Part shown: piece by piece, positions 506 to 64,000 of the stretch
How the letters are laid out: each line of letters opens with the position of its first letter
Numbering within the stretch: the first letter of the stretch is position 1
Source of the DNA: Cinnamomum chago
Taxonomy: Eukaryota > Streptophyta > Magnoliopsida > Laurales > Lauraceae
NCBI GenBank assembly: GCA_038049695.1
Contig: CP142453.1
Coordinates: 125,153,001-125,217,000, forward strand
DNA length: 64,000 nt
Direction: 5' to 3'
Position numbers and translations under genes: made by a program
Notes under the pieces: generated by a model
The model's database searches: none
Seen by the model: the letters and a program-made list of their open reading frames with translations, nothing else
What the model was told of the DNA's origin: nothing

Positions 506-508
506 TTA

Positions 509-1107
509 TCTCTAATGCACTACCCCACTCATACAACTCTCATCTACCCCCATCACTTCTAAAAAACACTTAACCCACCCACCTGAATATTTCTACCTCT
601 TCAACCCTCTCTCTCTCCCTCTCATCAACCACTCATTCAACTCATGTTCTACCTCTTTATATGTTTTTTTATTCCTTCATTTTGCTAATGCACATAGATG
701 ATTCTAGAGGTTCAGAGAGGAAATGGGAATCATGAAGTATACCATTTATTTATTTTTTGTTTACGGTGTGTTAACTGATTTGGATCTTCCACATATGGTA
801 ACACATTTTGTGCCTGTTTAATAGTTCAATATAAGCAAAAGCAATTATGCATTTGAATATATGATATTCATTCCCTTTCTTCTATTTAGTCTCTCTTGTA
901 TTTAAGACTTTATTACGATGTTCATTCTGAACTTATTCATCATTTTCATTTTTATAAAATGTATTAATGTTTAATTATTCTACGAAGTGATGTCTAAATT
1001 TATGAATGCTTAATTTGCAATATAGATTGTTTATTTTTTTAATCTAATATTTTTTTTAATTTGAATTGAATATGCATACCCATGTTTAGCACGGGTTTTT
1101 GTGCTAG
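509..1107 (+). mobile_element. Small non-autonomous Helitron
   Basis: The 3' end is typical of plant Helitrons: a short hairpin (ACCCATG, loop, CACGGGT at about 1078-1096) followed by a T-rich spacer and the terminus CTAG at 1104-1107, with a T next to it at 1108. A fitting 5' end, TCTCTAATGCACTA, starts at 509 directly after an A, so the element would sit between host A and T as Helitrons do. It has no coding capacity. If the 5' end is right, it inserted only three bases beyond the LTR ending at 505. The 3' end is more certain than the 5' end. Confidence 0.6.
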
Positions 1108-1311
1108 TATTAACATTACATTGACCGAGTCCAAGTCGAGTCCACATATTACCACCGCATGTGAAAATCAATGCACAACAAATTAACGTTGCGTAACAAT
1201 GCGTGAGAAAACTATGACCGATCTTTCTTATAATGGACACATGTCGAAGATGCAAATCTAATATCAGTCTAAACCATTATGACCAATTTTGTCACATATC
1301 CAACTCAAGTG

Positions 1312-5505: not shown

Positions 5506-6626
5506 TGTTGGAAGACTAAAGATGGCTTCTCATGGACTGGCACGACGAGCTATTTAGGTTTGTGCATTAACCCATCGTTAATTTGTAAAACTTGAACAAG
5601 GTTTAGCTTTGTTGGGCGGAGGAGCATTAGATTGAAAACAAAAATGACATGAAGAAGTATAATTTATTAAAGAATACGTTTTAAGATAAATTAGAACGAA
5701 ACAATAAAATTTTTATGGAGGACTCTAATATAAGTAGCTTTGATGGTGGTAATGATTTATTTATTAAAATAATATACCCTATCTCTAATAGATATTAAGG
5801 TAAGAGATGTTATACACATGATTTTTTAACCTAATATTTATTTAGTTGGTATTAAGTATTCAGGTTTGAACTCCACTAGTCTAGAATTAAGGAATGAACT
5901 CCACTGGACCAGAGTCGTGGATCTGATTGCCAAAACTGGTGGTCAAAAGAGAGGGTTTAGACTTTTGACCCAAATTTTAAAAATGGAGTAGTACTTCCCA
6001 TGGTAAGGAAATCAAAGGTTAAAGACCCATGGTCTTTGATAAAACGAGGTGTGCGGGCGTGAGTCACGTGAGGGCACCGGCTTTAAAGTATTAATTAATG
6101 GTAGAAGCACTGGATGTGATATCAAAAAAGTAGCACGTACAGGGGCATTTTATGGTCTCGTCGTGGTCGTGTCCACGTGCTTTGAGTCTTACACCCACAG
6201 AAACGGTTGAAGGAGTGAAAAAGCAAACGCCCTCCTCTTCAAAGATACTAGAATTTTCCTCTCACACAAGTGGATCTCACCACATTTTTTACCTTTTAAT
6301 TGAATGGTCAATCACAGCAATTAGAAAGGAAGTTAATTTGGATAGCTTTGACTTTTAACGTGAAGTTTCACTCCTTGAATTTAATATCTCTCTGGGTTAT
6401 ATTTATACAATGCATTCTTTTATCATAAAAATTGAATACATATTCGTTTTCTTTTGATACAACGACAATTTACATATATTAAAAAAATATCTGATAGTTC
6501 TACCAAGTCAGACATTGGTGCCGTAGAAGCTATTTATCTTTCTGGGCTTGGGTACAAGAGGGAGAGACCAAAGGACCTGGAAATGGAATGTCCTAATAGA
6601 GCCCAAGATTCTAACATTAAAAAAAA
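5506..6626. other. Intergenic, no gene recognised
   Basis: I see no coding region with recognisable domains. The sequence is AT-rich and unique by eye. The part just right of the LTR (CAGACTGTTGGAAGACTAAA) is the continuation of the old insertion site. Confidence 0.6.
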
Positions 6627-7269
6627 AAAAAAATTGACAATTACCGTAGGGACTGTTATAAAACTGACAATAGCTTAGAATAGTTTAAAGATGTATATTT
6701 ACCGCAGAACTGTTCAATCCGTATGATATCGCAATCTGCGATATTCTAAGAATATAGGATATCCTACAATCACTTGAATAATCCGTGTATTTATTTTTTT
6801 TCCTTTACCATGGGACCACCAAACCACCATCCAAATCCATTGAATTGAATAGTTGTATGAGTGTAAGAACTAATATCGAACTAAATTTGAACCGTTGATT
6901 TATTACGGTTATCAAGAAACTTGCAAAAAAAAAAAAAGTGGCTTATAATTTGTAAAACAACGCGACTTTCTTGCAAATTTTTCGATAACTATGATAGATC
7001 AACTGTTCAGATTTGGTGCGATATTAGTTTTTACACTCATATAGCTATCCAACGGTTTGGATGGTGGTTTGCTGGTCCCACAATCAAGGAAAAAAAAAGA
7101 AAAAAACGAATTGTTTAAATCTTTCCACTTTTAATTGTGTACCTACATCCCTTGGATTTCGCACCTACGAATTAAATAGCACTGCTTAGATAGTTAGATA
7201 TATATCTTTAAGCTGTTTTGGGCTATTTTCTGCTTTACAACAGTATATACGGTAATTGTAAAAAAAATT
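6627..7269. mobile_element. Mutator-like MITE with long inverted arms and 9-bp TSD
   Basis: The element body is 6636-7260 (625 bp). The left end GACAATTACCGTA is matched in reverse by the right end (TACAATTACCGTA on the minus strand). The inversion continues inwards over most of the element: for example GGGACCACCAAACCACCATC near 6811 pairs with GGGACCAGCAAACCACCATC read backwards from about 7081. It is flanked by AAAAAAATT at 6627-6635 and again at 7261-7269, a 9-bp duplication as made by Mutator-like transposases. It has no transposase and would fold into a long imperfect hairpin. The A-rich target weakens the duplication as evidence. Confidence 0.75.
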
Positions 7270-9005
7270 AAAACAGAGCCTAAGTCAAATGGATGGCCAC
7301 ATGGTCATGATTGGTGACTCTCAAAGCGTACCACGACAACGCTGTCAATTTAATTGACCTACCGACCCTGACTCAAACGTAAGCAAGTGATGTCACTTAG
7401 GCAGAAGTGGGGCCCAAAAAAGAAAGCATTGTTTCTGTTTGTGGGACCCGTGAAAAACTTACTTGAACTACCGTCCTTCTCTGCATTAAATTAAAGAAAT
7501 TCTTTAAAAAGAATTATAAAACTTTTGCCTCATTTTTTAAAAAGTACATAAAAACTTGAATATTTTAATAGGGTATAAGTTTTTTCCATAGTCACTAGGG
7601 AAAAATATTGAAAAAAAAAAAAAAAAAAGCCCTTATGCCTAATTTTTCAAATTTTCTTAAATAAATCATTTAATAGAAATGATCAAGTTCAACCAAAATA
7701 ATCTAGTAGGGCACACTTCAGCAAATCAATAAGATTAATTTTGGATAGGAAAAAAGATTATAAAAGACAAAAACTCTTCATACAGGAATTGTATTTTTCT
7801 ATTTTTAAACTCCTTTTTTTTATGAAGAGTACTTGATTGAAAAAACTGTGAAAAAAAAATCTATACATTTTAAAAGTATTTAGACTTATTTGTACTTTTT
7901 TTAAAAATTAGCCAAAAGCTTTATATATATATATATTGAAATTCCCCCTTAAATTAATATCAATGAAGTAGTAAAATGGTTGTAAAGAGACTAAGAACAA
8001 CCCAATGGAAAGAGCATCCCAGTCTCACATAATTTGTACCCCTACCCCTACCCCTACCCCTACCCCTACCCCTACCCCTCACCCAACTGGCAACTAGAAT
8101 AAAAAATACAGTACAATGGTTGTAAAGCCATCAAAGTAGATCTAGCTACCTTCTATCCCACATATAAGAATCCCTCATTTGGTCTGGTCTGTAGGTCCCC
8201 AGGTAGGTGACACCAAACTAGAGGGGCCTGATGGGGTTCTCCCAAGCGGAAGAAGTAAAAACTCTTCCTGCCAGGACACAAATAAAATTTTGAACCACCC
8301 TCAAAATGATCATTGTTAAAACACTCTTTTAACTTTTAATAAATCTTCATCGCTGTCTTCTCTAAATAATAATAGATTTAGTGGTGGCCCAACCATCATT
8401 TGCCTAAAATCATACAAGAGTCCATGGGAGATTTTGATCTGAGCTCGATTACACCATGGGTGGAATAAAAGTTTGGCTTGTACACTTTTGGTAGTTTGTC
8501 GCTTGTCGCTTCTGGTACTCATTATCTTAAGGATATAAAATATTTTAAAAGCTGGAATTTAGAGAATTCTGTAAGAAAAAAAAAAAAAAAAAACCTCATG
8601 TCACAAGGCTGTATTTTTCAAATTTTACAAAGCAAACAAAAATCTTCAAATGCTACGGGCTACCAGCCAACATGTTTGTCAAAAATACCCTACAACAAGA
8701 AATTTGGTAAGGAAATTTTATGAACGAAGGCACTCCAAAAGGCCCATTTATTTGTATGAAATTGAATTTGTAATGATTCTTGGTAAAAATGGGTTGAAAG
8801 AAATATATTATTAAAGATGTAAGAGGAGAAGAATGTAAGGTGGGGATGTAAATGAGAGCCTATTTTCTTAGGATTTGATTTACCAGTGCGATGGAAGGGT
8901 ATTCATTTTTTATATTAATTTATTTTCTATTAAAGATTAGATTATTTGATGGCCATCTCCTTCGTTTTTCCAGTTTCAATAACTTTTAGAAATACATTTA
9001 AGGAA
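7270..9005. other. Intergenic, no gene recognised
   Basis: AT-rich sequence with several poly-A runs and the TACCCC hexamer array listed separately. No coding sequence with recognisable domains was found on either strand. Confidence 0.6.
8037..8078. repeat. Seven tandem TACCCC hexamers
   Basis: Seven perfect copies of TACCCC run in a row, then degenerate into TCACCC. On the minus strand this reads GGGGTA repeats, a G-rich array able in principle to form a G-quadruplex. It is not the plant telomere unit (TTTAGGG), so an interstitial telomere is not supported. Confidence 0.9.
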
Positions 9006-43213: not shown

Positions 43214-44445
43214 CTTCAACAATAAAAGGGGAAAATTCTAAATACAAAGCATTTAACTTGTAGGAACAGAGCTAGAAACCCTACTTTGTCATCCTTTTTT
43301 TTTTATCACAACCAATTGAATCATATAGAACTTTGTCATCCTTCCCCATATGAGTGGGTTGTCTTTCTATGTGTGCAGGCTCTCTCTCTTGTGTCCCGGC
43401 CCCCTTAGCTTGGGTAAAAAAAAATATCACATTGAACTATATATTGCATCCTATCTCTTGGAGGGCCCACTTGAAACAATGGAAATCACTTGAGGCAGGT
43501 GAATGGATAGGTTATGATGTGGATTAGATGTCCCCATCATCATTCCAATCGTCTCACTAGGTGGGAGAACTCTTAAGCCAGCTGAATCTCCTCATTTTGG
43601 AGAGGGACCGAGCATATTCAGGCAAAGCTCAGTGTATATTCAAGGGCAGTTTTTTTCCCCCTTTTTTAGGCATCTTTTTTAAGAAGAATAGTTTGGATTG
43701 ATTTTTGAGAATTTTAGGTGAATTAATTATAGTTTATACTTTTGTAAACATTCAATATTTTTCTAAATGACCATTATCATCAAATTCCTGTTCATCTTTA
43801 TCTAAATATTTTTGAAATGAAGAATTGACTCAGGGTTCTACCACGTTGACTTCATTGAGTCAATTTCTTTAATCATTTTTCCTGACTCGGGCTGAGTCAC
43901 AAGTTTTGGGCACCTAGTTTTCCAATGGACAGCATAGCCCCACAGTCCTAATCCATTTAAGGGCTCAATTAATCTTAAGAAATCTCACTAAATCAAATTG
44001 CAGAACCTTGATACGGATTCAGAGATGGTGATGTATTTTCCAGTACTGGTCATAAATTTTGATACAGTTTTTCCAGTGGCAATGATCCTGAAATATTCGA
44101 AGGACTGAGTTTTATTTTATTTTATTGTATTGTATTTGTTCCGTTGCACACTTAAATATGCAATGAACCCTTAAAAATAAATCCATCCCTCACACAAGAA
44201 ACACAAGACACGCCAGTTAAAAGGCCGAAACTGACGTCCCATGGAGATTTGAAAAAATAAGCAAATAATCCAGGAGAGAGAGAGAGGGGGGGGCAAAGGG
44301 CAAACCACTCTCAGCCCAGTCTGAGAAAGAATTCGACCTGTAATATCTATTCAATATTGAACCCAACCAAACACATCCCAAGACCCATTCTCTCTGTTTG
44401 AAAGGGCTCTCCAACTCCTCCTATAGTTTGCAACCCACAAAAGAC
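43214..44445. other. Intergenic, upstream region of the first acyltransferase copy
   Basis: No gene recognised. The last 300 bases resemble the region upstream of the second copy (46840-47133): shared blocks include GGCAAACCACTC, ATTCAACCCAACCA-like sequence and AAGGCTCTCCAACTCCTCCT just before the start codon. The tandem duplication therefore included the proximal promoter and 5' UTR. Confidence 0.6.
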
Positions 44446-45762
44446 ATGAAGGTAAACATGGAAAGCTCTATCCTCCTGAAGCCTTCTTATGAAGGCGAAC
44501 CCCCCTCAACTGCTGGCTCCATTCCTCTAAGTGTATTCGATAAGGTCACCTACGACACCCCAATTGCCATAATTTGGGCCTTCAAGCCACCAACACCCCC
44601 AAACACCAACATGCAAAAGGGGCTGCAAAAGGTGCTCGCCATCTACAGAGAATGGGCAGGGAGGCTGGGGATGGATGACAATGACCGCCCCTCCATTCTC
44701 CTCAACGACGAAGGCATGCGCTTTGTCGAGGCCTCTGTGGATTGGACTCTTGACCACACCATGCTCCTCAAACCCTCCAAAGCTCTGCTCAACTTCCACC
44801 CAACCGTCAAGGTTGTGGAAGAGCTCCTCCAGGTCCAAATCACCCGGTTCGCCTGCGGCTCCATGGTGGTTGGCTTCACCTTCCATCATCTTGTCGCGGA
44901 CGGCCAGTCCACCATCAACTTCCTCATTGCTTGGGCCCGAGCCTGCAGAGGCCTCCACAAGAACCCACTCCCTCTCCACGACCGCACCCTCTTCACCCCT
45001 CGCAACCCACCTCGTGTCTAGTTCGAACACCAAAGAATAGAGTTCGTGAACAAGAAAATGATCAAGGAGCACCCGTATCCATATCCCAACTCAGACGACT
45101 CATCAAACAGGCTGATCATGCACAAGGTCCATTTCACGCGAGAGTTCCTAACCAAGCTCAAGGCCAAGGCATCTGCAGGTCGAAATAGGCCATACAGCAC
45201 GCTCGAGTGCCTGGTGGCCCATCTGTGGAGAGCCATCACGCAGGCTCGCGGCCTAAACGAGTCCGAGATGACCCATGTGAGGATTTCTGTGGATGGGCGT
45301 GCGAGGTTGAATCCTCCCGTGCCAAAAGAGTACTTTGGAAATCTGGTGTTGTGGGCATTCCCTCGAGCCAAGGTGAAGGACCTTTTGCAGGAACCTCTGC
45401 ACTTCGGAGCCCAGCTCATACACGATGCAGTCTCCAATGTCAATGATGACTACTTCAATTCGTTTATCGACTTTGCGAGCAATGAAGAGGAGGTGAAGGA
45501 TCTGGTGCCTACAGCTGCAGACAAGTTGGTGTTGTGTTCGAACGTGGACGTTGATAGCTGGTTGAAGTTTCCTATCTATGATTTGGATTTTGGAGGTGGG
45601 ACGCCCTACATCTTTATGCCATCTTACATTCCAGTGAATGGGTTGTTTTATCTCCTCCCTTCCATTGTTGAAGATAGGAGTATAGATGTCTTCATATCCT
45701 TGTTTCAAGAGAACCTGGTCACCTTCAACAAGATATGCTGCTCTCTATCTCCGAAACTGTAG
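44446..45762 (+). pseudogene. BAHD acyltransferase, agmatine-coumaroyltransferase-like, with one in-frame stop
   Basis: The frame begins MKVNMESSILLKPSYEG and runs to SLSPKL, 438 codons, interrupted once by TAG at 45019-45021 (codon 192), where the intact neighbour at 47134 has AAG (Lys, context QVKFEHK). Everything else is in frame and well conserved: HHLVADG (HXXXD catalytic His 148, Asp 152) before the stop and DFGGG (381-385) after it. The DFGGG form and overall sequence resemble agmatine coumaroyltransferases of the BAHD family, which make hydroxycinnamic acid amides from a CoA thioester and an amine in the cytosol. The stop would remove the second half including DFGGG, so the gene is probably a young pseudogene. 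A base-calling error is the main alternative. The ATG at 44446 is chosen to match the neighbour; an in-frame ATG at 44398 lies in the conserved 5' UTR. Confidence 0.85.
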
Positions 45763-47133
45763 CTACGCTGGTTAAGGGACCTGTGTGTTTCTAAGTTATT
45801 TGGTGTTGGTTATTCATTTCCCTTTTTTTACTTTTATTTCTTTTATAAAAAGATTATTTGATTGTTATTTTTGAGAATTGACCTATATTCTTCATTTTTA
45901 ACTACTTATGCCGTACATGTCTTATTTGTTCATTTACTATGTATTTTAATGTAAAGAAGTAGACCCTCAGCTAGCTGTGGTACATGCAATCCAAAAAAAC
46001 ACAAAGAAACTGACTTGAGAAATTAATAGCTGAGGTGCCTGGTAGTTGGTAGTGAAGAACGATATCGATAGAGCATAATCTTCTGATTGGTTCACGTTCA
46101 AGGCTAGGGTTATCCTTGCTTCATTTCAAGCTGTATTATCAAATTATATGTACTGAGTTGTAAGCCTTTCTATATGATGCAGCCATTTCTTTCTCCTGAA
46201 TCTAAGACTTCATTGATGTACTGGTAGTATATATTACATAATAGTATTGTCTGTAACTCTATATTAATAGACGATGGGTTGGGCTGGTTCAGCCCTAGAT
46301 TAGTTCTCAAGGTTGTGGGCTTTTCAAAATTGGGCCTTAACCTAACATAGGGCTATAGGATAAAGTAAAAACCCTCACTGGCTTTGGCAGGCCAGGCCCA
46401 TTCGGGCCCTCGTCAAAGGGTTGGATTGACATCCGTATCCAGCGTAATAAGGCAACGGAATTTGGATATAATTTAGAGTGACCCAAAATAACAATCTAAG
46501 CAATTTAGGGCCAGTGGTATTGCTCAAGGTAAAGATTTCTAACAAACTATATTGGAAGCAGCCATGCTATCCACAGCAACGGCCCTATGATTCCTAAGAC
46601 AATTGTTGATAATTTATTTGGATCCTTCTCACTTGTCCTTCTTGGGCTGAGAGCCATGGGAGAGCCCACACACGAGGGTAAAACTCCCAGACAACAGGAA
46701 TATGCTTCCCACCAACAGATCGACCGTCTGACATATCTAAAATAATATAGCAAACTTTTGACTCATCTCTCCCTCTAGTCAACTAGGCTTTTTTATCATG
46801 TTGAAAAGTGCCGGCCCTAATCCGTTGTTCCCAAAGGCACAAGACTCCATGCTACGAGATGGCACTAGACATTCCAAGGATAGGGATAGCCCAATTGAAA
46901 GGCCAAAATGGCCGTCTCATCCGGATCCAAAAAAAAATGAAGCAAATGATCCGGAAACAAAGAGGCAAACCACTCGCCAGCCGAGTCTGATTGGAGATCC
47001 CTTCCCTGTTCCCTATAACATACTACACATTCAACCCAACCATAGCCATCTCTCTCTCTCTCAGCCTCACACTTATCTATGAAGGCTCTCCAGCTCCTCC
47101 TGTAATCCATTACCGACCAAATTAAAGCTAGCA
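45763..47133. other. Spacer between the tandem acyltransferases
   Basis: Holds the 3' UTR of the first copy, an hAT-like short element (about 46269-46437) and, from about 46840, the duplicated promoter and 5' UTR of the second copy. No further gene recognised. Confidence 0.6.
46269..46437. mobile_element. hAT-like short non-autonomous element
   Basis: Starts with GACGATGGGTTGGGCTGG and ends TTGGATTGACATCCGTA, with GGCCCATTCGGGCCC near the right side. This is the pattern of plant hAT-type MITEs (GGGC-rich near both ends, terminal TTGACATC). Target duplications were not established. Confidence 0.45.
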
Positions 47134-48453
47134 ATGAAGGTGCAAACGAAAAGAACTGTACTCCTGAAGCCCTCTTATGAAGGCAAACCTCCCTCAATTA
47201 CAGACTCCATTCCTCTCAGTGTATTCGATAAATTCACCTACGACATCCACATTCCCGTCGTATGGGCCTTTAAGCCACCAACTCCCCCTAACACCACCAT
47301 CCAAAAGGGGCTGCAAAAGGCACTTGCATTCTACAGAGAATGGGCAGGGAGGCTGGGGATAGATAACAAGGGCCGTCCCGCCATTCTCCTCAATGACGAG
47401 GGCGTGCGCTTCGTCGAGGCCTCGGCCGACTGCACTGTCGACCAGGCCATGCCCCTTAAACCCTCCGTTGCTCTGCTCAACTTCCACCCCTCCGTCAAGG
47501 GTGTGGAAGAGCTCCTCCAGGTCCAGATCACTCGGTTCACCTGTGGCTCCATGGTGGTCGGCTTCACCTCCCATCACATCGTCGCCGACGGCCACTCCAC
47601 TAAGAACTTCCTCATCGCTTGGACCTTAGCCTGCAGAGGCCTTGACATGAACTCACTCCCTCTCCACGACCGCACCATCTTCACCCCTCGAGACCCACCT
47701 CAGGTCAAGTTCGAACACAAAAGTATAGAGTTCAAGAACAAGAAAGTGGAGCACCCAGGGCCATATCCATATTCAAACTCGAACTACACATCAGACGGGC
47801 TGGTCATCCACATGGTCCATTTCACGCTAGAGTTCCTGACCAAGCTCAAGGCCAAGGCTTCTGCAGGTCGAAATAGGCCATACAGCACGCTCGAGTGCCT
47901 AGTGGCCCATCTGTGGAGAGCCATCACGCAGGCTCGTGGCCTAAACGAGTTTGAGACCACCCATGTGAGGATTTCGGTGGACGGGCGTGCGAGGTTGAAC
48001 CCTCCTGTGCCAAACGAGTACTTTGGAAACCTGGTGCTGTGGGCATTCCCTCGAGCCAAGGTGAAGGAGCTTTTGCAAGAGCCTGTCCAGTACGCGGCCG
48101 AGATCATACACGATGCAATCTCCAATGTTAATGACGACTACTTCAGGTCGTTTATTGACTTTGCCAGCAAGGAAGAAGAGGTGAAGGATCTGGTGCCTAC
48201 TGCTGATCCGGACAAAGCTGTGTTGTGTCCACATTTGGAGGTTGATAGCTGGTTGAGGTTTCCTATCTATGATTTGGATTTTGGAGGAGGGAGACCCTAT
48301 TTCTTCATGCCATCTTACATTCCAGTGGACGGGATGTTGGGTCTCCTCCCTTCCATCAATGGAGATGGAAGTATAGATGTCTTCGTATCCTTGTTTGAAG
48401 AGAACCTGGCCACATTTAATACGATATGCTACTCTTTGTCCCCCGAGCTATAG
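47134..48453 (+). CDS. BAHD acyltransferase, agmatine-coumaroyltransferase-like (intact copy)
   Basis: A single-exon gene of 439 codons, normal for the family, beginning MKVQTKRTVLLKPSYEGK and ending SLSPEL. The catalytic motif is SHHIVADG (HXXXD, His 148 and Asp 152); the structural motif near the C-terminus is DFGGG (382-386) rather than the commoner DFGWG. DFGGG, with EVDSWLRFPIYDLDF before and FFMPSYIPVDG after, fits agmatine coumaroyltransferases (BAHD clade IV), which transfer a hydroxycinnamoyl group from CoA to an amine such as agmatine to give defence-related amides. The acceptor cannot be told from sequence; putrescine, tyramine or other amines are possible. It is the downstream member of a tandem pair whose partner has a stop codon. 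A short pyrimidine-rich 5' UTR precedes the start. No signal peptide, so cytosolic. Confidence 0.92.
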   Translation: MKVQTKRTVLLKPSYEGKPPSITDSIPLSVFDKFTYDIHIPVVWAFKPPTPPNTTIQKGLQKALAFYREWAGRLGIDNKGRPAILLNDEGVRFVEASADCTVDQAMPLKPSVALLNFHPSVKGVEELLQVQITRFTCGSMVVGFTSHHIVADGHSTKNFLIAWTLACRGLDMNSLPLHDRTIFTPRDPPQVKFEHKSIEFKNKKVEHPGPYPYSNSNYTSDGLVIHMVHFTLEFLTKLKAKASAGRNRPYSTLECLVAHLWRAITQARGLNEFETTHVRISVDGRARLNPPVPNEYFGNLVLWAFPRAKVKELLQEPVQYAAEIIHDAISNVNDDYFRSFIDFASKEEEVKDLVPTADPDKAVLCPHLEVDSWLRFPIYDLDFGGGRPYFFMPSYIPVDGMLGLLPSINGDGSIDVFVSLFEENLATFNTICYSLSPEL

Positions 48454-52890: not shown

Positions 52891-55800
52891 GTCATTATAA
52901 CATCCCGAAATTCCAAGGTTGTAATTAGCTTAGTTAATTATGCTTTTAACTAATTAAGCTCGTTTATAAGCTAAACAGGTCCGATTAATCTTTAGGGTTG
53001 CGCGTTTGAAATTGGGTTGAGATCCGAGCCCGTTTGGGTACAGTAGAGGTGTGTGTCGCTATTTCCGGAAAGTTCCGAGTGCTTTTTAGTATTTTCCGCT
53101 TTTAGAGATTTTGACACGATCGGGTAAATTACCTAATTTCCCGGATTTTATTCTTCTGTTGCACCTCGATCCGGACCCTCGAACCCGACCCAAAACGTGA
53201 CCGGCCCCAAACCCATTAAACTTTCTTCTCTCTCTCTCCTCATTCCTTTCTCTCTCCTCACTCATTTCCTTCTCCCCTCACTCCACGTGCATAGCCAGCT
53301 GCCCCCTCTCTTTCCTTCTCCCTTATCTTCATTTCCCTCCTCTTCTCATTTACTCCACACAACAGCCCCCCTTCCGATGTTTCTCTCATCTCTCGTTCTC
53401 CCTCCCTCATGGCGTGCTGCCACCGTCGCCGAGCTCCCCATCTCCGGCGATCACCAACACTAAGCTCTCTCTTCTCTTCTCCACTCTCTCATCTCATCAC
53501 TCATTTCTTTCACTCATCTCTCCCTTTTCCCAGCTCACAGCAGCCCATCCCCCTCTCTTTTCTCCTTTCTCTCCTCCCTCATCTCACCTCCCTCACTGTC
53601 CACCACCACTGAACCCATCTCACCATTTCCTCTTCATTTCTTTATTTCTTTCCCCCCCTTCTCTGTTTCTCTCTCCCGTTCTCTGTTTTCCTTCTTGTTT
53701 CTCTTTCTTTATTTCTTCCTCTCTTTCCCTCTCATCCCACCTCATCTCATCTCACCTCTCCCCCACTTCACTCCACTCACTATCACTCACGTTGACTTTT
53801 CTCCCCTCACCCATGTCACCATTTCACTCTCTCTCTCTCTAATTCATTCTCTGTTTCTTTATCTCTCTTTATTTCTCCATTCTTTATTTCTTTCTATCTT
53901 CACTCTCATTCTTGTCAATGGGCCACCAATAGCTATATCACCACTAATCAGTGGGCCACCAATCAAGTGGGCCCCACAACCTCCGATGATCATTATCATC
54001 TCCGCGTGGACCCCGCAAGCTCAACAATCTCCAATTTGCAAGCCACCACTCTATCCACCCATTTGTTTGGTAAGCTCTCATTCCCCTTAGGTTTGGTTTA
54101 ATACACTTTGGGTGTAGAAATGTATTTGGTAGCTTAGAGCTTCCCCTTTAGTAATGTTATATTTAATTTAGTTTTATTTTGTTATTTATCCCTGGCTTGG
54201 TTTGTTGGACTATGGAGCTAGGATTTGTGGATTTGTGCACTTTCAACCAAAGGCAAGTAAATAGCTATATTAATGCTTGATATGTTTGTCTCCCTTGATT
54301 TGTATGAGAAAATCATGTTTTAGATGTTAATTGCTCAATTGATACCTTAGACGTTTGAAAACATGATAATATGGTTTATTAGTTGAATGGAATGGATTTA
54401 GAGGTTAATGACCTGATTAGTTAGTTTTGTATATTGTAATTAGGTTGTTTCTACCTCTACATGTACTGTTATTAGGTTCCAGAAGTTAGGAAATGGAAAG
54501 GCCCCATTTCAGTGTAGAAACAGAGCCCAGGCCCTGTTTCCGCAGTTCACTCGGTCGACCGGCCAAGGACCTCGGTCGACCGGCGACACATGGTCAGGTT
54601 CCCAGGAACCTGACCAAAACACTATTTAGGATTTTTGTTCACAACTGCGGGTCGACCGGCAAGGGGCGGTCGACCGGGCAAACGTGAAGGAGGTCGACTT
54701 GGCTTCCTCAGGTCGACCAAACCCCTGTATACCTGGTCGACCGGCCAAGGGGCAGGTCGACCGAGCCAACTGTAGAATTCCTTCTGGGAAGGGATTTTTA
54801 CCCCATTGTTGGGTGGACTTTGATGGAACCTGGTTACCCTTTTGTGGACTCATTTGACTTATAGTAAAAATGTTTGAGCAGACATTCTTTACGGTTGATC
54901 CGGTTGTATCGGGATCTAACCTAGTTCAATCCTAAATGGTATGAGACAACGGGATACTCTTCTTTAAATTTATGCACGAAGATTGTTCGTCCGAGTATCG
55001 CGAACCCTAATCCCTTCGTTGACTGAATAGATTGTGCGATGCTTCAGGGTTGACATTATACTTAGGATTGGATTGTTTATCGTCTTCGATTCTGAATGGT
55101 ACCTTCGGGTACTATCTTCTACATGTGATAGGCATGTTCTTTAGTTCTGTTTGCTTTGCTTTACTAGAGGATCACTTTGAGAACTTAGATGATGGACTTA
55201 GAATCCCCTTTGATGTTTCGTTTGTTTCGATATTCGTTTGAAGTGTTGAGGTTAGAGAGCTTTGATTGTCAGGCTTAAAGAGGACTACTATTGATATTTG
55301 TTTTGAGATTTGATTTGATTTGATTTGGAATAAAGTAGTTCTCTATCGATATTGAATTTTGTTCGCGCAAGAAGCCTAGCCCTTCACCGATGTCTTTAGG
55401 ATTCTTTGTGTCAGGCACCACTCAGCTGTTAACGTTCAACACAGTTGGGTCACCATCTGTGAGAGGACCCGATACTATCCTCAAAGCGAGATAGAGCCAG
55501 AGCTCACGGAGCCCGAGCTACTTGAGCTGAGAGTTATTTATTCCTCGAGATGTTTGTTTTGTCGAAGCAAGATAGAGCAAAAGCTCACGAAGCCCGAGCT
55601 ACTTGAGCTAAGAATTGTTCGTCCTCGAAGCAAGACAGTGCCAGAGCTCACGGAGCCGGAGTACTTGAGCTACGGGTTGTTTGGATATTGGATACTGAGT
55701 TTTATCCAAATTGATTATATAAATTTAACATATGTGGATCGTCTACTTTGATAGTTTGTTTATAATTCGAATGCAATGCATCTCTTACGATCAGAATGCT

Positions 55801-56364
55801 ATACATATCTTATAATCATGTTTATCGTTTACTCTCTTTAATACTGCATATCTATGGTGATTTATATATCTATCTCCTTGCCATCCGTTGTATTGATGAT
55901 GCTACTCTTGGTGCATAGGTACCAGGTACATCTATTTTGGGGAAAGTGGAGGCGTCGCTTCATGCAGTTTAGCCTGATAGTAAGTACGAGTTGTGTGTCG
56001 ACGGTATTGTCGTAATGACAAGCACACAAGTGCCTTCATACTTTGGTTAGTTCGTATTTATTCTCTTTTGGCTTAGGTTTTGTTAGAGGCCATTAATTAA
56101 TATACTTTTGTTATCTTTTGCTAAACTGAAACTATAGAAAAGAAATATGTGCATACTCTAAAATGTTATATTGTACCATCTGTTTTATTATGATGTTCCG
56201 TTGTGTTTTATGGTTACCGAGGAAATATTTATACCTCAACGCGGACTTACAATCCTATGGGACATGATTAGAGCAAGTTACATTTGATTAATGTTGGAAA
56301 AAATTTTAATTGACCCTAATCTCACGTATAACCCCGGTTTCACTTTTGGGGGCGTGACAGTCAT
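52891..56364 (+). mobile_element. Complete solo LTR (fossil) with 5-bp target duplication
   Basis: The LTR is 52896-56359 (3464 bp). It starts TATAACATCCCG, ends GGGGGCGTGACA, and is flanked by GTCAT at 52891-52895 and 56360-56364. It has no internal region. A long pyrimidine-rich block covers 53220-53905; the several long open frames there are compositional. At 54553-54770 it carries eight GGTCGACC-type words and, at 54592-54615, a palindrome with arms GGTCAGGTTC and GAACCTGACC. These features match the LTR at 40819-43208 in reverse, which fixes the plus orientation. Probably Ty3/gypsy. Confidence 0.85.
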
Positions 56365-56500
56365 GCTCATTGTCAGGATGCAGTTTCACCTGACATTAGC
56401 CATGAAGAGAGGAAAAACCAAAAAGAACTGATACAAGAGCAAGTAGGAGAAAAAGCCAAAAGAACAGATACAAGAGCAAATGACTACCACCAAGCATGTA

Positions 56501-57036
56501 TTACATATGCCATATTGCATTAGAGTTGCTACATATCAATGGCAGCGCATCTCGACTTCCAGATTCTGCTACAGAAAAATATCCAGTGGTGTGCCAAAAG
56601 AGTGTCCAATAAGCGGGTATACAACAGCAGGTGTGGCAGAACCAATGAAGCGCTATCATTCCACAGGCTTCTCTCCAACATAAGAGATGACAAAAAAAGT
56701 CAGAAAGGCCAAGCAGCTTGGCGTACTGGATGACAAACCAGCCCGTTGCATAGATGTATGCAACAAAGAGACACGTTCGCCTGAAACGAGCTTCGTAAGC
56801 TGCAAGACGAACCCTCCCAGCATTCCACTTATCTGCCAGCCTGACTTTCGACTCCTGGAGAAGTTTAGCCACGATCATGAAAATAAGGGGACCCAACACA
56901 CCAAAGGCAATGCCAGCTACTGCACCCTGAGACGCAGCCTTAGCATTTCCTGACTTTGAGAACAGGGCCTTTATGGACATTGTGAATCTGTTGATTCGGG
57001 GACACACGTGAGGAACCAATTTGCACACCCAAACAC

Positions 57037-57073
<37 letters not shown>

Positions 57074-57366
57074 CCTTGAAAAGCAAGTCCATCATCCAGC
57101 CATGTCTATATGGCAGGATGAGACAGCGCCAAGGGACATTGGGAAAGGTCCCATGCACAATCTCATGAAAAACCAATGATCAATGTATCTAAAATGCACT
57201 AATATAATGGAACATATATCTTAGAAAGATGTACTCACAGGACATAAAATCTTCTTAGCATCTCTAGCATGGATGGCTCTTTTGCCTGGCAATTAAACAG
57301 ACTGTCCGGATATATGTCAACCTTAGAAACATCAGGCATATACCTCCAGTTATAGGTTTCATTCAC
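56501..57366 (-). pseudogene. Two exons of an unrecognised membrane protein gene (3' part)
   Basis: Exon 57366-57239 follows acceptor TTTTCCTCAG and ends at donor CT/GTGAGT. It encodes VNETYNWRYMPDVSKVDIYP and, to its end, LEMLRRFYV. It joins in phase to an exon starting at 56987 (acceptor CAACAG) encoding LFTMSIKALFSKSGNAKAAS, a hydrophobic Ala/Gly-rich segment (GAVAGIAFGVLGPLIFMIVA), a basic stretch with WNAGRVRLAAYEARFRR, and a second hydrophobic segment (LFVAYIYATGWFVIQYA). The frame then runs on to 56501. In a neighbouring frame an ending TFFVISYVGEKPVE followed by TGA (near 56660) looks more natural, so a length change in the A7 run at 56693 is possible. I do not recognise the family. 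The 5' exons are absent between 57366 and the transposon end at 57630. It may be the 3' end of a host gene split by the CACTA insertion, or another fragment. Confidence 0.55.
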
Positions 57367-57840
57367 CTGAGGAAAACAATCAAGATTAAAAGGAATTTAG
57401 AGTTTGGAGCATCAAGAAACTCCACAAAATTGAGGATTAACTTTAAAAAAAAAAGTTAGCAAAGAACCATGATTTGAGAAACTAATGACAAATATAATGT
57501 GCAACAACATTGTTGCAATGTGGGCTCAAAAAATATTTTTCTTCAATAGAAAAATACATGAGAATCCCATGCACAAACCACAAGGGGCCAGGTCCACGAG
57601 CAAAGAGGAAGACAGCTTCCTGTTGCAAACACTACAAGAAAAATTACATTTAGCAGCGGATAAAAACCACCACTATATGTATGAAAACCGCCGCTAATAC
57701 CTTTTGCGGCAGAAAAATATCCGCCGTCACTTTTGTCATAGAAAATCCCATCGCTGATTGTATTTACAGCGGAATACAGAATTACTGCTAAAAAATTATC
57801 AGTAGCGGCAGATCTAAACCACCACTAATTATTGTATCTT

Positions 57841-57970
57841 GTAGCAGCAATCATCACAAACTGCTGCTAAAAACCCATGCAACTTGTAGCACATCACAAA
57901 CTGCTGCTAAAACCCCATGCAACTTGTAGCAGCAGACATCACAAACTGCTGTTAAAAACCCATACAACTT
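57841..57970 (+). repeat. Three tandem copies of a CACTA subterminal repeat
   Basis: Each unit of about 40-45 bases has the form TGTAGCAGCA, ATCACAAACTGCTGCTA, AAAACCCATGCAAC. The first half and second half of a unit are inverted to each other (AGCAGC/GCTGCT), as in transposase-binding subterminal arrays. Units start at about 57841, 57886 and 57925. Confidence 0.85.
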
Positions 57971-58464
57971 GCAATTTTCCAATTTTCTGAGTGCTGGCTT
58001 TCATCATTAACAGAACATTCAGTCAACCAACCCTCCAGACCCTCCACACACCTAACAGAACCGTTGGGAGTGATTCAATCAGAATATAACATAAACGACA
58101 GTGTCACATCATGTGATTAAAAACCTTATCTAGATTCAAAGGGGGGGAAAAATAAAGCTTAAGCTTTATTTACATAGATTGATTTGGATTTAAAACAACA
58201 TATGACATTGACATCTGAATAGCCCATTTTAAACTGCACCCCTTAGAAATCACTGCCATATACAATCCATTTTAACAAGAAAAAGGGAGAATTCAGCTAT
58301 AGTGCCCCACACCCTGACCCAACTAAGGAAGGATCTCCTAAAAGTCGAGATCCAACATCTTCCATCTTCCCATATATGTGTCTCTATTATCATTAGTTAG
58401 TAAGGAATATTATGTAGTATGGCATGGAATGGGATGGTTGTGACATGATTATTTTGGGTTGGTA

Positions 58465-58970
58465 TCATGAGCGAGAGGTTGGGTGAGGGTCCAAGGCACG
58501 GATGAAAGGGGCATGAGGAGGAGGAGGAGCCCATGGGGAGATGGGGATGGGGTGGTGAGGTCGGTGGTTGGCATCAGAAGAGGAGACAGCAACCCTTTCA
58601 CAGGATGGGCAGAGGGTAAGGGTAGTAGGGGGAGGCATGTGCATGTATAGCTGAGGGGAGAGCTTCAAGGCCCTCAGCTCCTGCACCTCCTTTTGCAGCC
58701 TCCTGTTCTCCTCAGTCAGATTCTCACACAACCTTTTCAGAAACTCACAGTCCACCTCTGTCTGCTTCAACTTCGTCCTGTTTTCAAATTTTTCAAGGCT
58801 ATGTGAGAGATCAGAACAAGCAACAATATTTTTCTTTTCTACTCTCATTTACACCACAACATTACAAGGGAAAAATTCATACACACACACACACACACCT
58901 TGCTCTGCGGTTCTGGAACCATACTTCCACTTGTCTTGGACGGAGATTCAATTGCTGCTCCTGAGACATG
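58465..58970 (-). pseudogene. HD-ZIP class II transcription factor, C-terminal fragment (captured)
   Basis: Exon piece about 58970-58899 encodes EQQLNLRPRQVEVWFQNRRAR, helix 3 of the homeodomain. A 121-base intron (GTGTGT...AAACAG) follows. Exon 58777-58465 then encodes [20 protein letters not shown], the leucine zipper ([16 protein letters not shown]), [18 protein letters not shown], which is the CPSCE motif of HAT4/ATHB-2 class II proteins, and a Pro/His-rich tail ending TSRS and TGA. Phases and splice sites are good. The N-terminal half, including most of the homeodomain, is missing: at its 5' end the exon runs directly into subtilase sequence. It is a captured fragment rather than a working factor. 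Confidence 0.9.
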
Positions 58971-59341
58971 TGGGCATGACATGGAAGTCCCTGATAGTAT
59001 GTTGTAATTAACATGTCTTTTGTCTGTTTCAACCGATGTCAACTTGGCCACGGGAGAAAATGCAGCTAATATGTCCATCCCTGGTGCGGTTATATCCGGC
59101 TAAAAAAATGATGACACAACATTGTCAGGTGTGAAATTGTTGATTTCTTGCATAAAACTGAAACTTTCTATGAAATGGAACCAAAATAAAGATACCAGAT
59201 CCATTCATGGAATAGCAAGCAACCTTTAATATGTCCGGAGAAATGTGGTTTGGTCCTCTAGAAGAGTAGGAAACCACATATGGGGCTGTGGCATCATGTA
59301 TAGACTCACTTTTGAGTATTCTTGCCATTGGATTTATGTTC
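58960..59341 (-). pseudogene. Subtilisin-like protease (cucumisin type), two-exon fragment (captured)
   Basis: Exon about 59341-59224 encodes [14 protein letters not shown], then [20 protein letters not shown], ending at a GT donor. Exon 59099 to about 58960 (acceptor TTTTTTTAG) encodes PDITAPGMDILAAFSPVAKL and NYNILSGTSMSCPHVSGA, which holds the catalytic serine region GTSMSCPH. This is the C-terminal part of the S8 catalytic domain of a plant subtilase (SBT4/cucumisin group, secreted proteases). The signal peptide, propeptide, catalytic Asp and His, PA domain and C-terminal domain are all absent. Downstream the exon passes without a break into the HD-ZIP II fragment. Confidence 0.9.
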
Positions 59342-59678
59342 AATGAAAACTCTGTAAGTAAAAGTAGTCATCTGATAGTTTTGAAACATCTGATAAAGAA
59401 CAATCTTTTCTACACCAGAAAAAAAATGATGTTATGTTGATAAAGCATTTGAGTAGGAAACAAGCTTGGATTAGTGGTTCAAAATATCAATATAGGTGAA
59501 TAAAAAAGTGAGTTTGTGTGATATTATAATGGTCCTATCTACTAAAAATTACTTTGAACAAGTAATAAAATTATAAGCCATTATAATCTTACAATGCATG
59601 ATCATCTCTAATTAACACTTCCAATTTCTAAAAAAATAAAGTTCATCAAGAAAAAATTTCTATTTTCAAGAATGATAC

Positions 59679-61781
59679 CTGTGAATCTTCCCTTATTCTT
59701 AGGTTTTGCCCTGTTGGATCAAGTAAATCATTGATGAGCTGAAAAGGAAAAGAAATGTGCAAGGTGAGAAAGATGATTTCAGCAAAACCAGAATGGTCCC
59801 ATTTGCAAACAGAAAAAGGTAGTCAGTCTATGTTTTGGTATGTTTACCTCTCTATTCAGCCAGTAAAGTAAGAGAAATGGGTTCCTAACAAAAGAATCGT
59901 CCCTTTTTCCAGCATTCAAGAAAGAGTTTCTCTAACAGTTAATTTAATGAAATCTTGTGTTACTGATCCAAAAAAAAAAAAAACAGTTGCTCCTATCTGA
60001 CCTTTTCTTAGAGGCACTCCAATTCACCAATGATGAGGAAGTGGCTTCAAACTATAAACAGCAATAACGGAGAAACTTAAAACAAAAGGACCTAAATGGC
60101 TCCTTGCATAATTTTTGGGCCATTGTCCACTTCTCCTGCGTGTAGAGCCACCCTACTCTAATATTGTTGTTTCCGGTGCTAAATTAATAGGAATAAATCA
60201 AAACAGAAAAAGTCACCTTCCAAAAATTGGCACAACCTATTTCATTAACAGGTATGACCTATGTAAGATCCGAGAAGACCATGCCATTCCATCCAATTCC
60301 TCCATAAATACGTAAGATCCAAGAACACCACGCCATTTCATTAAATTCCTCCATAAATATGTAAGATCCAAGAGCACCATGCCGTTCCATTCAATTCCTT
60401 CATAAATCCGACTCGCATCTGATATGTTTAATCAGTATTTTTCCTTCCAAAATTGATGCCCAATATGATTGTTGTTACTGCATCCTTTCACTGCTGTAAC
60501 AAATCTGGATCCGATATTCAAATTGATTTATGCCAATTATTACTTCTAGAGTTTTTTTTTTATCTTAAATTGCAATTTGGGTCCTCCTCTCAATTTCCGA
60601 ATCTGGAAGTCAGTTTACAATTAACAGCTGAAACAGAAAAGAAAGACTACATGGAGAACTTAGCACCAGTCGTAGCAGCAAGGAGCCAGAAAACCATAAT
60701 TTGTCACTCTCCATGCGATGGAAAATTGAAGAAACTTGTTTTCGTTGTGAAGCACTATGGGCTTGGAACTTCACCTGATGGTTGGTGCAAATCTCCAAAA
60801 AGAGACCATTTCCTTCCCTTTGTTTTAAATTATGAAGCTCCCTATCTCACATTCTATAACGGTTTGTTTTTTTTTTTTTATCTTACCACAAGTTAATGCA
60901 ATCATTTATTTGACAAGAAAATGACATGATGAACGGAACAACATATAAAAATTGAGAAATTAGATGATACTACCTCATTGTATATTTCCAGATACGAAAC
61001 ACGAAGAAGAAACTCGCGCCCAGGTATCTGAAGCATATGGTGGAAAGTTCAGAAATAGAAGAGAATATAGGAAATGTTAATTAACATAGAAACAGTTGTA
61101 GCTACCTCTTGTATAATACCAAATACATCCTTCACTGCCAACGGGATTATCCCAGGTGACTTTTGCTCACCCTGCACCAAGAAAATGTTAACAGATTTCT
61201 CTCATTGAACTACAAATGTCGGCAACATTTTAATTTAAAATAGAGAAATCATCCTCTTTACATAACTATTTTATTAGGACATAATAACTTTCACTATGAG
61301 AATCTTAGAGACTGGGGGATTAAATTCTTGAAGGAAAACAAAGCTTCGTGGTTAAATGGATTTAGTAGTTAAAACATATTATCCAATGGGCTTAGGCAAT
61401 TGCAAGCATGGTACAGAGAAAAGGCAGAGCGGTTTCATGGTGCCAGTACTAGTAAAGAAGCTGTTTTGCATCAGGGAGCATGTAAAGCTACATTCAGTGG
61501 TAAACCCACCAGGTTGGAAAATTAAGCTCACTAAAGATGCATCCAAGACTTCTTTGAAGTAATTTTAACTCAAAGAACATGTGTGCAAGTAATATAAAAT
61601 ATTCTACCATTTTAAGGCATGAAGAGTCCAATAAGTTTTAATAGTGAGACATATGATCAGTAAAATCTAGTATGTAAGGTCCATGTTACCTACCAAAACA
61701 AAAACATTGTTCTGGTTGAGAGGCTTACATGCATTGTATGGGTCTTTCCACTACTTGTAACACCATAAGCAAACACTGTGC
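59679..61781 (-). pseudogene. Kinesin-7 motor domain, four consecutive exons (captured)
   Basis: Exons 61781-61729 (TVFAYGVTSSGKTHTMH, the P-loop), 61171-61106 (GEQKSPGIIPLAVKDVFGII), 61027-60974 (IPGREFLLRVSYLEIYNE) and 59738-59679 (LINDLLDPTGQNLRIREDSQ) are in order, in phase, with GT-AG introns and no stops. Joined they follow the motor domain of plant kinesin-7 (CENP-E/MKRP-like) without a gap. The upstream exons with the start of the motor, and those with the switch motifs (SSRSH, DLAGSE), stalk and tail, are absent; downstream the next coding block belongs to a subtilase. It cannot make a working motor. The 1.2-kb intron before the last exon contains the 49-bp tandem repeats at 60261. 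Confidence 0.9.
60261..60408. repeat. Three tandem copies of a 49-bp unit
   Basis: GTAAGATCC occurs at about 60263, 60312 and 60361, each followed by a similar block (AAGAACACCACGCCATT, AATTCCTCCATAAAT). The copies differ at several positions. The repeat lies in the long intron of the kinesin-7 fragment. Confidence 0.85.
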
Positions 61782-63138
61782 CTATAGAAAGAGGAGGGAG
61801 GGTGAAATAAGCCACCATTATACCAAGCAAATCTTGATTGCCTTTGGAACAAAAAAATAAACATTTAATTGTCATGTCATGGTACTGCTACAAAGAACAC
61901 AGATTAATTTTGAACCAGGCATCCAGCTACAGGATCGGAATTCTGCCTTTGGAGCAGGAACTGGATATGAATATGTTGTATTACATCAATACATTGAGGA
62001 TGGTAAAATTTGCTTCAACATGCATGAGTGGATGCATTACATACAAGTACATAGATCATATTCTATTTGGACAAAGATAACACTTGCAAGTACAATTGCA
62101 TGAATTTTTTTTTATAAAAACCATAACATGAACCAAGAAAATTGTATGAAACAGACGTATAACTGTGCACTCTGCTTCTAAGCAAAAATATTACAGCCAT
62201 TGTGTCATGCAAACATATCTATTCTAGTAATCACCAGTAATAGAAATATGCACCAAATTATCATAAAAGAGTAGGAAAGGTAAAAAGTAAAAACATTGAA
62301 AAGAATATGGGTCCTTCAAAGATCAAACCTTTCCGCTATTTCCTAAATTCAGATTGCCACGAGCTCCACCATTAAAATTTAGAGTGTCGCAAAAGATTGA
62401 TGAATGAGTTACAGAATAGAAAATCATAGCAGGGTCAATGCTGAAACCCAGAAGGGAAGTAACAATCACAAAAGCCACAGGACAAAAAAAAATCAAGTAT
62501 TCCTTCTCTCCTACTGTAATATTTACTTGGAAGACAAGCCAGAATAAAGATAAATATTAAGAATGCAATCACAATGCCATAATATATATACCTTCAAGTC
62601 TGTATCTGATCACATGAAATTAACCTTTATCTTTATACCAACCTAATTTTATTTTTTTTTGTTTTTTTCCTATTTCTGTCAATAATAATCTTAAAAACTA
62701 ATTGTAACTAATTGTTTTGGTCTTCTCTCTGGATGAAGATACCACCTCTTTCCTAGCTCCATCTCCAGCCAATGAAAAATGAAAAATTAAACGAACAAAA
62801 AACTAACTAGAAAATCCATTGAAAAAAATATAATAATAGAAAAATCATTGCAGCATATTTTCATACAAGTGCTAGATTTAGGAACAGCTGCATTCAAATT
62901 GTGAGCTAATCATTGATTGCAGACATCCTAGAAATGTCCATGGGAATAAAGATTTTCATTTTCCCTATTAATTTTCAGAAGTTCAAAGCACTCAAATTGA
63001 ATTGAAGTTCCAACAGTTAAGGCTATGCATCATGAAAGAGAATTAGAACATTCGGAGTTGGATGGATGAAAGAGAAGCAAAGAAAAAAAAAAAAAGAAAA
63101 AGAAAAACAAAGGAATTGCAAGAAGAATATATTCTTAC
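61782..63138. other. Sequence between the kinesin and mannanase fragments
   Basis: No known exon is recognised. A minus-strand stretch at about 62395-62335 could encode DTLNFNGGARGNLNLGNSGK and may be part of another captured exon, but I cannot assign it. The earlier kinesin motor exons are not visible here. Confidence 0.4.
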
Positions 63139-63246
63139 CTTGAAGACTTGGTTATCAAATCGGCCCAGTGAGATCTGAAGAGCATGGTGAGTTCCATCAT
63201 TGAAAGCCCATGTCCTACAGACAGTGAGGCCCATCTTGGCACCAGC
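63139..63246 (-). pseudogene. Endo-beta-mannanase (GH5) exon, captured
   Basis: A 108-base exon between acceptor TAGCACAG and donor AAG/GTAAGA encodes 36 residues: AGAKMGLTVCRTWAFNDGTH followed by HALQISLGRFDNQVFK. This matches the conserved GLTVCRTWAFNDG...ALQ.SPGRFDE.VF region of plant mannan endo-1,4-beta-mannosidases (GH5_7), secreted wall enzymes that cut mannan. No other mannanase exon could be recognised on either side within the window. If more exists it lies beyond 64000, so a complete gene starting to the right cannot be fully excluded, though the downstream exons are not between 63139 and the kinesin block. Confidence 0.85.
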
Positions 63247-64000
63247 CTGTGCTAGAACAAGGAGCTATAACCAAAGAAGTAATTTATGAATTTACTCCTA
63301 GGTTAAAATTTTCTCCAATTACTAGATTTTCCGTCTCACCAGGGCCAGGCAAAACTGACTGGATAAGTCATACTCTCTCCAAAAGGAGTGAGCTTTTTTC
63401 TTTTGGCTTGCTTTTACACTTTTCTTGGGAAGATTTTTTTTTAATATTATTTCTCTTAGGAAGATCTCTCTCTGAGATAAGAACAGTTAAAGGACCAAAT
63501 CCAATAAGAATGTCAAGCATACCCCTCTCCCACTACATGCACTTGATAAAGCACCTGGTCTACCACCATCCCACTTTCGACATCACAGTAAGCATCCACG
63601 GGGATCAGCAACCTGGTATGCAGAACATCACCCAAGATCAGAAATAGAAATTCATGTACACTGACAGTTTTAAACTCTCAAAAAGCAAGGCCTCCTCTAC
63701 ACTGCAAATGTGAGTTTTTGAAGCTTTTAGAATAAAATTACTGCATATATGCGTAGTATATACGCACAAGTATACACTACATAAATAGATGACCAAAATA
63801 AAGACCCAGTTTGGAGATCAGGTAAAATCTAGTTTGGAAGAATTTAATGAAACTGCAGATAAAGCTTCTCTCTCTAACGCAACAACTGAAGTTACCCAGA
63901 GTACCGGAAAAAAAAAACTACATTTCTAAAGTCAAATTCAGACCATACAAATTGTTAAAAGCATCATGTGCTCGTCCCAGGATACGTTCTCAACAGATCC
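63247..64000. other. Right edge, unassigned
   Basis: I see no clear exon. A plus-strand open frame of 132 codons (63249-63647) overlaps the mannanase intron and matches nothing I recognise. Confidence 0.4.

Follow-up and report, generated by a model that had tools for sequence, protein, structure and literature searches.

A CACTA element of Cinnamomum chago that carries fragments of five host genes and was probably assembled in at least two stages

The window analysed here is a stretch of 64,000 nucleotides from the genome of Cinnamomum chago (C3:125153001-125217000, G000; assembly of 1.06 Gb in 14 contigs), and its right-hand part holds a CACTA element in which fragments of five host genes lie side by side. 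Very probably, this is a non-autonomous Pack-CACTA of 8,127 bp that arose stepwise, through fusion of an older CACTA carrying pieces of four genes with a younger CACTA carrying a piece of an HD-ZIP gene, and that was inserted at its present site afterwards. A preliminary description of the window had read the region as a gene-shuffling CACTA element. Our results support that reading and refine it in two respects, as the donors number five and the collection probably took at least two stages.

Termini, target site and cargo of the element

The features of the element are listed below in window numbering, which is used for it throughout; coordinates called element coordinates count from its first base.

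57630-65756 (8,127 bp, of which 57630-64000 lies inside the window), no strand assigned: CACTA element, delimited by terminal inverted repeats (TIRs), flanking AAA/AAA and an empty paralogous site
57630-57643, plus strand: left TIR, CACTACAAGAAAAA (exact match)
65743-65756 (L009:1743-1756): right TIR, TTTTTTTTGTAGTG (one mismatch to the left TIR)
57630-57966, plus strand: left terminal region with AGCRGC-type subterminal repeats (by motif count), common to six HD-ZIP-bearing CACTA copies
57967-58956, minus strand: HD-ZIP II fragment, 3' end of the gene (Pfam, splice sites, donor L027)
58899-58969, minus strand: fused exon at the subtilase/HD-ZIP joint (read from an open reading frame, ORF; the joint occurs at one genomic place)
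58954-59534, minus strand: subtilase fragment (Pfam, donor L047)
59535-62140, minus strand: kinesin fragment (Pfam below cut-off, exons, donor L018)
62136-63249, minus strand: endo-beta-mannanase fragment (PDB match, donor L026)
63248 to about 64828, minus strand, crossing the window edge at 64000: bHLH-MYC_N gene fragment (donor L049)
Element coordinates from donor alignment: terminal region 1-337; HD-ZIP 338-1327; subtilase 1325-1905; kinesin 1906-4511; mannanase 4507-5620; bHLH 5619-7199; right terminal region 7200-8127

The two TIRs pair at 13 of 14 bases, so that the element is bounded by the 5'-CACTA repeats of the CACTA (En/Spm) superfamily, and AAA stands both before 57630 and after 65756 as the 3-bp target site duplication typical of these elements. 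As a 14-mer, the left TIR occurs exactly 433 + 443 times in the genome, against 18 + 20 occurrences of a reversed control. AGCRGC-type subterminal repeats were found at both ends, with seven copies in the left 400 bp (shuffle mean 0.52) and six in the right 400 bp (0.31), values that none of 2000 shuffles reached at either end. In the surrounding 124 kb, six or more copies are present in one of 309 non-overlapping 400-bp tiles, the element ends counted in; among the 15 densest sliding windows listed for this region, all eight with at least four copies lie at the element ends, while the best elsewhere has three. The left terminus with subterminal repeats that had been proposed at 57630 is therefore confirmed. 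The proposed extent, 57630-64000, proved too short: the right terminus, which the preliminary description had suggested seeking downstream together with a matching AAA, lies 1.76 kb past the window edge.

The insertion site is preserved without the element in a tandem paralogue about 30 kb away. The left flank (56357-57629) matches 86197-87483 at 96.3% identity and the right flank (65757-67091) matches 87481-88830 at 96.0%, and the two meet in the paralogue sharing exactly one AAA (87481-87483). Both ends and the 3-bp duplication are thereby established, and the insertion is confined to one of the two duplicates.

The five gene fragments make up 6,862 of the 8,127 bp (84%), and all are read on the minus strand, an arrangement with a chance of 1 in 16 if orientation were random. 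Four exon blocks on this strand had been described from the window (HD-ZIP II, subtilase, kinesin-7 and endo-mannanase), and all four are present; the count of four was short by the bHLH-MYC_N fragment at about 63248-64828, which had been overlooked. The HD-ZIP II fragment comprises the end of exon 2 (58899-58956), an intron, exon 3 (58465-58777) to its natural stop, and the 3' region. In the subtilase fragment the exons lie at 59224-59351 and between 59099 and the joint near 58956; in the kinesin fragment they lie at 61729-61781, 61106-61171, 60974-61027 and 59679-59738. The mannanase fragment holds one exon (63139-63246) and the intron after it. The bHLH fragment includes an exon ORF within 63516-63677, assigned by eye, and the first coding exon with its ATG (64350-64448), which carries a premature stop in the element. 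Neighbouring blocks overlap by 3, 0, 5 and 2 bp at the four joints. Of the seven exons checked, six are preceded by AG and followed by GT; for the other, HD-ZIP exon 3, the acceptor alone was checked.

These assignments rest in part on a Pfam run, with curated cut-offs, on ten ORFs from the window part of the element. Three exceeded the cut-off (Homeodomain, 6.8e-8; HALZ, 1.6e-10; Peptidase_S8, 2.6e-8), and three short exon ORFs matched Kinesin below it (5.2e-6, 0.0011 and 0.092). The four without a relevant Pfam match include the mannanase exon, for which the plant mannanase 9m20 gave a match at 7.6e-8, and one subtilase and one kinesin exon identified by eye and through the donors. Ten further ORFs had no Pfam match at cut-off, and beyond the window edge another ten ORFs of the element yielded neither a transposase nor any other Pfam match at cut-off. 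Thus, in the selected ORFs of both parts, the TIR-bounded element shows host coding DNA and no transposase, as a Pack-CACTA does; the donor-matching blocks fill element 338-7199 and the remainder is terminal sequence. We take the HD-ZIP fragment to be of class HD-ZIP II, from its CPSCE motif, the kinesin to be of the kinesin-7 class and the subtilase to be cucumisin-like; the bHLH gene is presumably LONESOME HIGHWAY-like.

Donor genes and related loci

When the window part of the element was searched against the genome at the DNA level, 42 matches emerged (best 40 of 334 candidates scored), with sharp and recurring borders. Each of the five blocks has a donor locus elsewhere, as the preliminary description had anticipated, and at each donor the gene sequence reaches past the captured piece (partly recognised by eye), as expected for a Pack element. 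In the HD-ZIP donor L027 (C6), exons upstream match HD-ZIP_N at 2.6e-20 and 1.4e-7. Other exons of the subtilase donor L047 (C3:19.84 Mb) match Peptidase_S8 (2.4e-13) and fn3_6 (9.3e-30). The kinesin donor L018 (C9) has, on either side of the captured piece, exons that were recognised by eye; in Pfam, one ORF outside the piece scored 0.078 and the other had no kinesin match. At the mannanase donor L026 (C12), the first-exon ORF matches 9m20 at 7.6e-26, with no match in Pfam. Two of ten ORFs at L049 (C7) match bHLH-MYC_N collinearly, at 6.5e-5 and 0.0063, both below the curated cut-off, and on this basis the fifth fragment is taken as bHLH-derived. Since donor introns were carried along in the blocks, capture took place at the DNA level, which agrees with the preliminary description.

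The possibility that L018 and L019, or L026 and L028, are themselves small single-gene CACTAs was rejected, because their edges lack CACTA ends and L018 and L026 show further exons of the genes. L019 (C3:18.55 Mb) is a second kinesin copy with a residue change in exon A (SSGKT to SSVKT), and about 9 kb beyond it there is a CACTA-like right-end match (69%). Element 3720-4511 (window 61349-62140; L030-L044) is the only stretch matched at 19 places among the matches listed. These belong to a high-copy CACTA family that holds a separate piece of this kinesin gene, namely exon A and an intron. A Transposase_21 match lies within 5 kb of at least nine of the 19 places (best 150 of 1658 candidates scored), and in one copy there is a DUF4216 ORF (1.1e-25); it thus appears that a host kinesin exon is carried by a CACTA with a transposase. 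This family was rejected as the source of the kinesin piece in the window element, which reaches well past the family's kinesin stretch, and the kinesin gene was apparently captured at least twice. The mannanase gene, too, was apparently captured a second, separate time: L029:1064-2902 (C6:58.43 Mb) holds a mannanase fragment with different borders that adjoins a CACTA-type right end, TACTACAAGAAAAG, with GCGGC repeats.

Two loci contain most of the right-hand part of the element. The C10:24.15 Mb locus (L016) matches element 1906-7662 without a break (97.5%), and the C5:58.71 Mb locus matches element 1906-2529 and 2526-8091 with 0.86 kb in between and has a right terminus, ATTTTCCTGTAGTG. Each also has a subtilase piece, on the expected side and with no change of strand, which is about 15 kb from the other pieces at C10 and about 2.6 kb from them at C5. 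Compared with those of the window element, the C5 subtilase and kinesin pieces are longer. The matches listed for the HD-ZIP block include neither of the two loci.

The left-hand part is found in a different set of places. Among the matches listed, six other CACTAs carry element 1-1327 or 1-1231, and they have the CACTA left end, CACTATAAGAAAAA in one of them. A second DNA search gave 83 matches (best 40 of 179 candidates scored) and located a right end for five of the six. All five HD-ZIP-type elements read at both ends, about 7.5-11.7 kb long, have matching 3-bp duplications (GGT, AAG, CAT, ATT and TGC); that of the C12 copy was read by eye, as its last terminal base differs, and the sixth copy (C2, L024) falls outside this count. 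None of the other four blocks occurs in the 7.7 kb read from the left end of the C11 copy, nor in the other HD-ZIP-type copies as far as their sequence was read. The HD-ZIP/subtilase and subtilase/kinesin joints each occur at one genomic place, with up to three mismatches allowed, and both the HD-ZIP piece in the relatives and the subtilase piece at C5 continue beyond the HD-ZIP/subtilase joint. The preliminary description had also called for other copies of the mosaic: partial copies exist, while none has the full mosaic and the two newest joints occur once each.

The pieces also differ in divergence from their donors. Kimura two-parameter (K2P) distances are 0.0426 for the subtilase, 0.0389 for the kinesin, 0.0396 for the mannanase and 0.0405 for the bHLH piece, against 0.0125, about three times lower, for the HD-ZIP piece. 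Non-coding positions agree, with 10 differences in 589 for the HD-ZIP piece and 209 in 5227 for the other four (Fisher p = 0.004). Over the common cargo blocks, the window element differs from the C10 locus by 0.011-0.018 and from the C5 locus by 0.030-0.045.

Assembly history and its alternatives

The hybrid of two elements, each without its facing end, is visible in the parts themselves: the left part is that of the HD-ZIP-type CACTAs and the right part that of the C5 and C10 loci. We propose that a CACTA element first took up the subtilase, kinesin-7, mannanase and bHLH pieces, because two loci hold kinesin, mannanase and bHLH with the subtilase piece nearby and the four donor divergences are about equal. 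Later, a related CACTA would have taken up the 3' end of the HD-ZIP II gene and multiplied, as the six copies among the matches listed and the 3-bp duplications of the five examined suggest. An HD-ZIP-type left part and a four-gene right part would then have merged, each minus its facing end, with the additional loss of about 2.6 kb that separated subtilase from kinesin; this step is proposed because the two joints are unique in the genome and the subtilase and kinesin pieces are longer at C5. Finally, the hybrid was inserted with duplication of AAA, as the empty tandem paralogue shows, the donor loci staying in place. Mobility was presumably provided in trans by a CACTA transposase. In a search for Transposase_21, all 150 candidates scored (the best 150 of 1658) were above cut-off, many in open frames of at least 700 codons. 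The joining itself may have come about by neighbouring insertions moving as one or by template switching during gap repair. The element fits what the fusion of neighbouring Pack elements predicts, namely two element parts with both cargoes cut at the joint, and joint overlaps of 3, 0, 5 and 2 bp would suit template switching as well. No pair of neighbouring, unfused elements in the same orientation is present among the matches listed.

Several observations weigh against this history. A complete four-gene element was not seen, as the reads of the C5 and C10 loci stop short of their left ends. At C10, 15 kb separate subtilase and kinesin, and the sole candidate right terminus among the matches listed (C10:24085419, 84%) lies about 65 kb past the bHLH block. 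The order of the C5, C10 and window copies hangs on small differences that vary with the block. The HD-ZIP lineage gives no clean tree, since the terminal 337 bp are closest to the C6 and C3 copies and the HD-ZIP block is closest to the HD-ZIP-bearing copy on C10. The interiors of the HD-ZIP-type elements are known for a minority of them, with 7.7 kb read at C11, and further copies may exist beyond the best 40 of 334 candidates scored. No Transposase_21 match was linked to the termini of the window element.

As a side observation on the terminal region, 26 of 29 differences between the terminal 337 bp and the C11 copy are transitions, and seven of ten in the adjoining HD-ZIP block. The terminal region seems to evolve by a different process, because its differences are mostly transitions, and the excess suggests methylation-driven decay of the subterminal repeats.

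Other histories have to be weighed against stepwise fusion. The blocks could be chance neighbours, a CACTA left end beside unrelated insertions or pseudogenes with separate histories, given that the donors lie on different contigs or far apart and that the window by itself shows just one end. This is hardly credible, as a single right end with a matching AAA stands 8.1 kb off, the 8,127 bp are missing as one unit from the paralogous site, and three of the five blocks occur together at two other loci. The empty site and the partial sister copies rule out separate insertions, and with them the outcome that the preliminary description had named as speaking against its reading, a missing right end together with a separate history for each fragment. 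All five pieces could also have been copied at once, through template switching while the gap of an excised CACTA was under repair; this would leave joint overlaps of just the 0-5 bp found here and would account for the equal age of four pieces. It is nevertheless improbable for all five, since the HD-ZIP piece has about a third of the divergence of the others and is present in six other CACTA copies among the matches listed, while the loci with the other pieces have no HD-ZIP match there. For the older four pieces alone, a single template-switching event is possible.

A third alternative concerns function rather than origin. The element could be a chimeric gene under selection, transcribed from the bHLH 5' region, spliced through the exons and ending in the HD-ZIP 3' region; the five fragments share one strand, the first coding exon lies at one end and the last exon with its stop at the other, and splice sites are retained. 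Yet the kinesin and subtilase exons are out of frame with each other, the first bHLH exon has its premature stop, and the exons of the older pieces, compared with their donors, show 4 synonymous changes over about 140 sites and 13 non-synonymous changes over about 465, which gives no sign of constraint. We consider selection on such a gene very improbable. HD-ZIP exon 3 differs from the donor by two synonymous changes, no non-synonymous change and one extra in-frame codon, too few to judge selection; among the six other copies it has a stop in one and a frameshift in one. At the subtilase/HD-ZIP joint, the fused exon has an ATG that comes from the subtilase side, outside the subtilase frame, and is in frame with HD-ZIP. 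Spliced to exon 3, this exon gives a predicted ORF of 127 amino acids that covers the last part of the homeodomain, the complete leucine zipper and the C-terminus. The ORF equals the donor from the seventh residue onward, save for the extra in-frame codon. That the transposon might have made a near-complete artificial gene (a bHLH 5' start, internal exons of three genes and an HD-ZIP II end), with this ORF as a regulatory microprotein born of the fusion, is a suggestion from sequence that we rate a shade lower still. If translated, the product, a zipper peptide lacking a functional homeodomain, could titrate the HD-ZIP II protein of the donor.

Surrounding region and relation to known elements

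The right end of the element lies about 1.5 kb upstream of a BAHD-type transferase ORF. Such ORFs form a tandem cluster (44344-48453 and 67089-81742, extended numbering) inside a segmental duplication, the direct duplicates being 94.6-97.1% identical; the ORF at 47083-48450 matches Transferase at 3.2e-75 and the others were recognised by similarity. To the left, a 3.46-kb insertion at 52896-56357, missing from the tandem paralogue at 86197-86204, has an 8-bp overlap, ACAGTCAT, and the ends TATAACATCCCG and GGGGGCGTG. ORFs left of the element (57238-57396, 56504-57091 and two more) had no Pfam match at cut-off. The right terminus of another CACTA, TTTTTCTTGTAGTG, followed by AAA, lies at 57-70, and no left end with up to two mismatches was found within 10 kb leftward. 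Searches of the window gave no Rfam match and no tRNA gene.

Gene-shuffling CACTA elements are already known, and the window element is a well-resolved further example. It was not itself found in the literature on captured-gene and fused elements that was searched, most subscription papers lying outside the search. Tgm-Express1 of soybean is a 5.7-kb CACTA in the F3H gene with five gene fragments (PMC1947982). Like the window element, it is a CACTA in which five unrelated host genes are represented by fragments that retain exons and introns, none of them a whole gene; unlike it, Tgm-Express1 sits in a gene intron and is spliced into transcripts, whereas the window element holds pieces of other genes, lies upstream of a BAHD-type ORF and is known from DNA alone (PMC1947982). 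As a further difference, donors, partial sisters and empty site of the window element are all found within one assembly. Captured fragments of Neprosin and AP2 in Chenopodium CACTAs are likewise host gene fragments within CACTA elements, but are described with one gene per element, located by distance from transposase-associated domains (PMC8978399).

The fusion of elements has been described as well. The Pack-TYPE transposons of rice and maize include fused groups, AB and BB (PMC8903248), and the window element resembles them as a non-autonomous TIR element with captured coding DNA whose structure fits a fusion of two related elements. It differs in that both inferred partners bore cargo and five donors were traced, and in that the joint lies inside both cargoes, not in DNA separating two insertions. 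According to the fusion model, neighbouring Pack elements move as one once their facing ends are lost (PMC8903248; PMC13317346). The Arabidopsis Pack-CACTA version of the model (Catoni et al. 2019, as relayed in PMC13317346 and PMC8903248) likewise yields a hybrid through complementary loss of the neighbours' facing ends, while for the window element the neighbouring state is deduced from the end products.

Acquisition of several genes by one element is usually reconstructed from finished products. Here, one assembly offers the five donors, several copies of the HD-ZIP-bearing partner, two loci with the older multi-gene part, an empty site, blocks that were dated and joints without a second occurrence, and these loci combined amount to an ordered test of the published element-fusion model. 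They indicate that fusion can unite elements that both already hold cargo, and if two cargo-bearing elements fuse, sets of exons can therefore grow in jumps.

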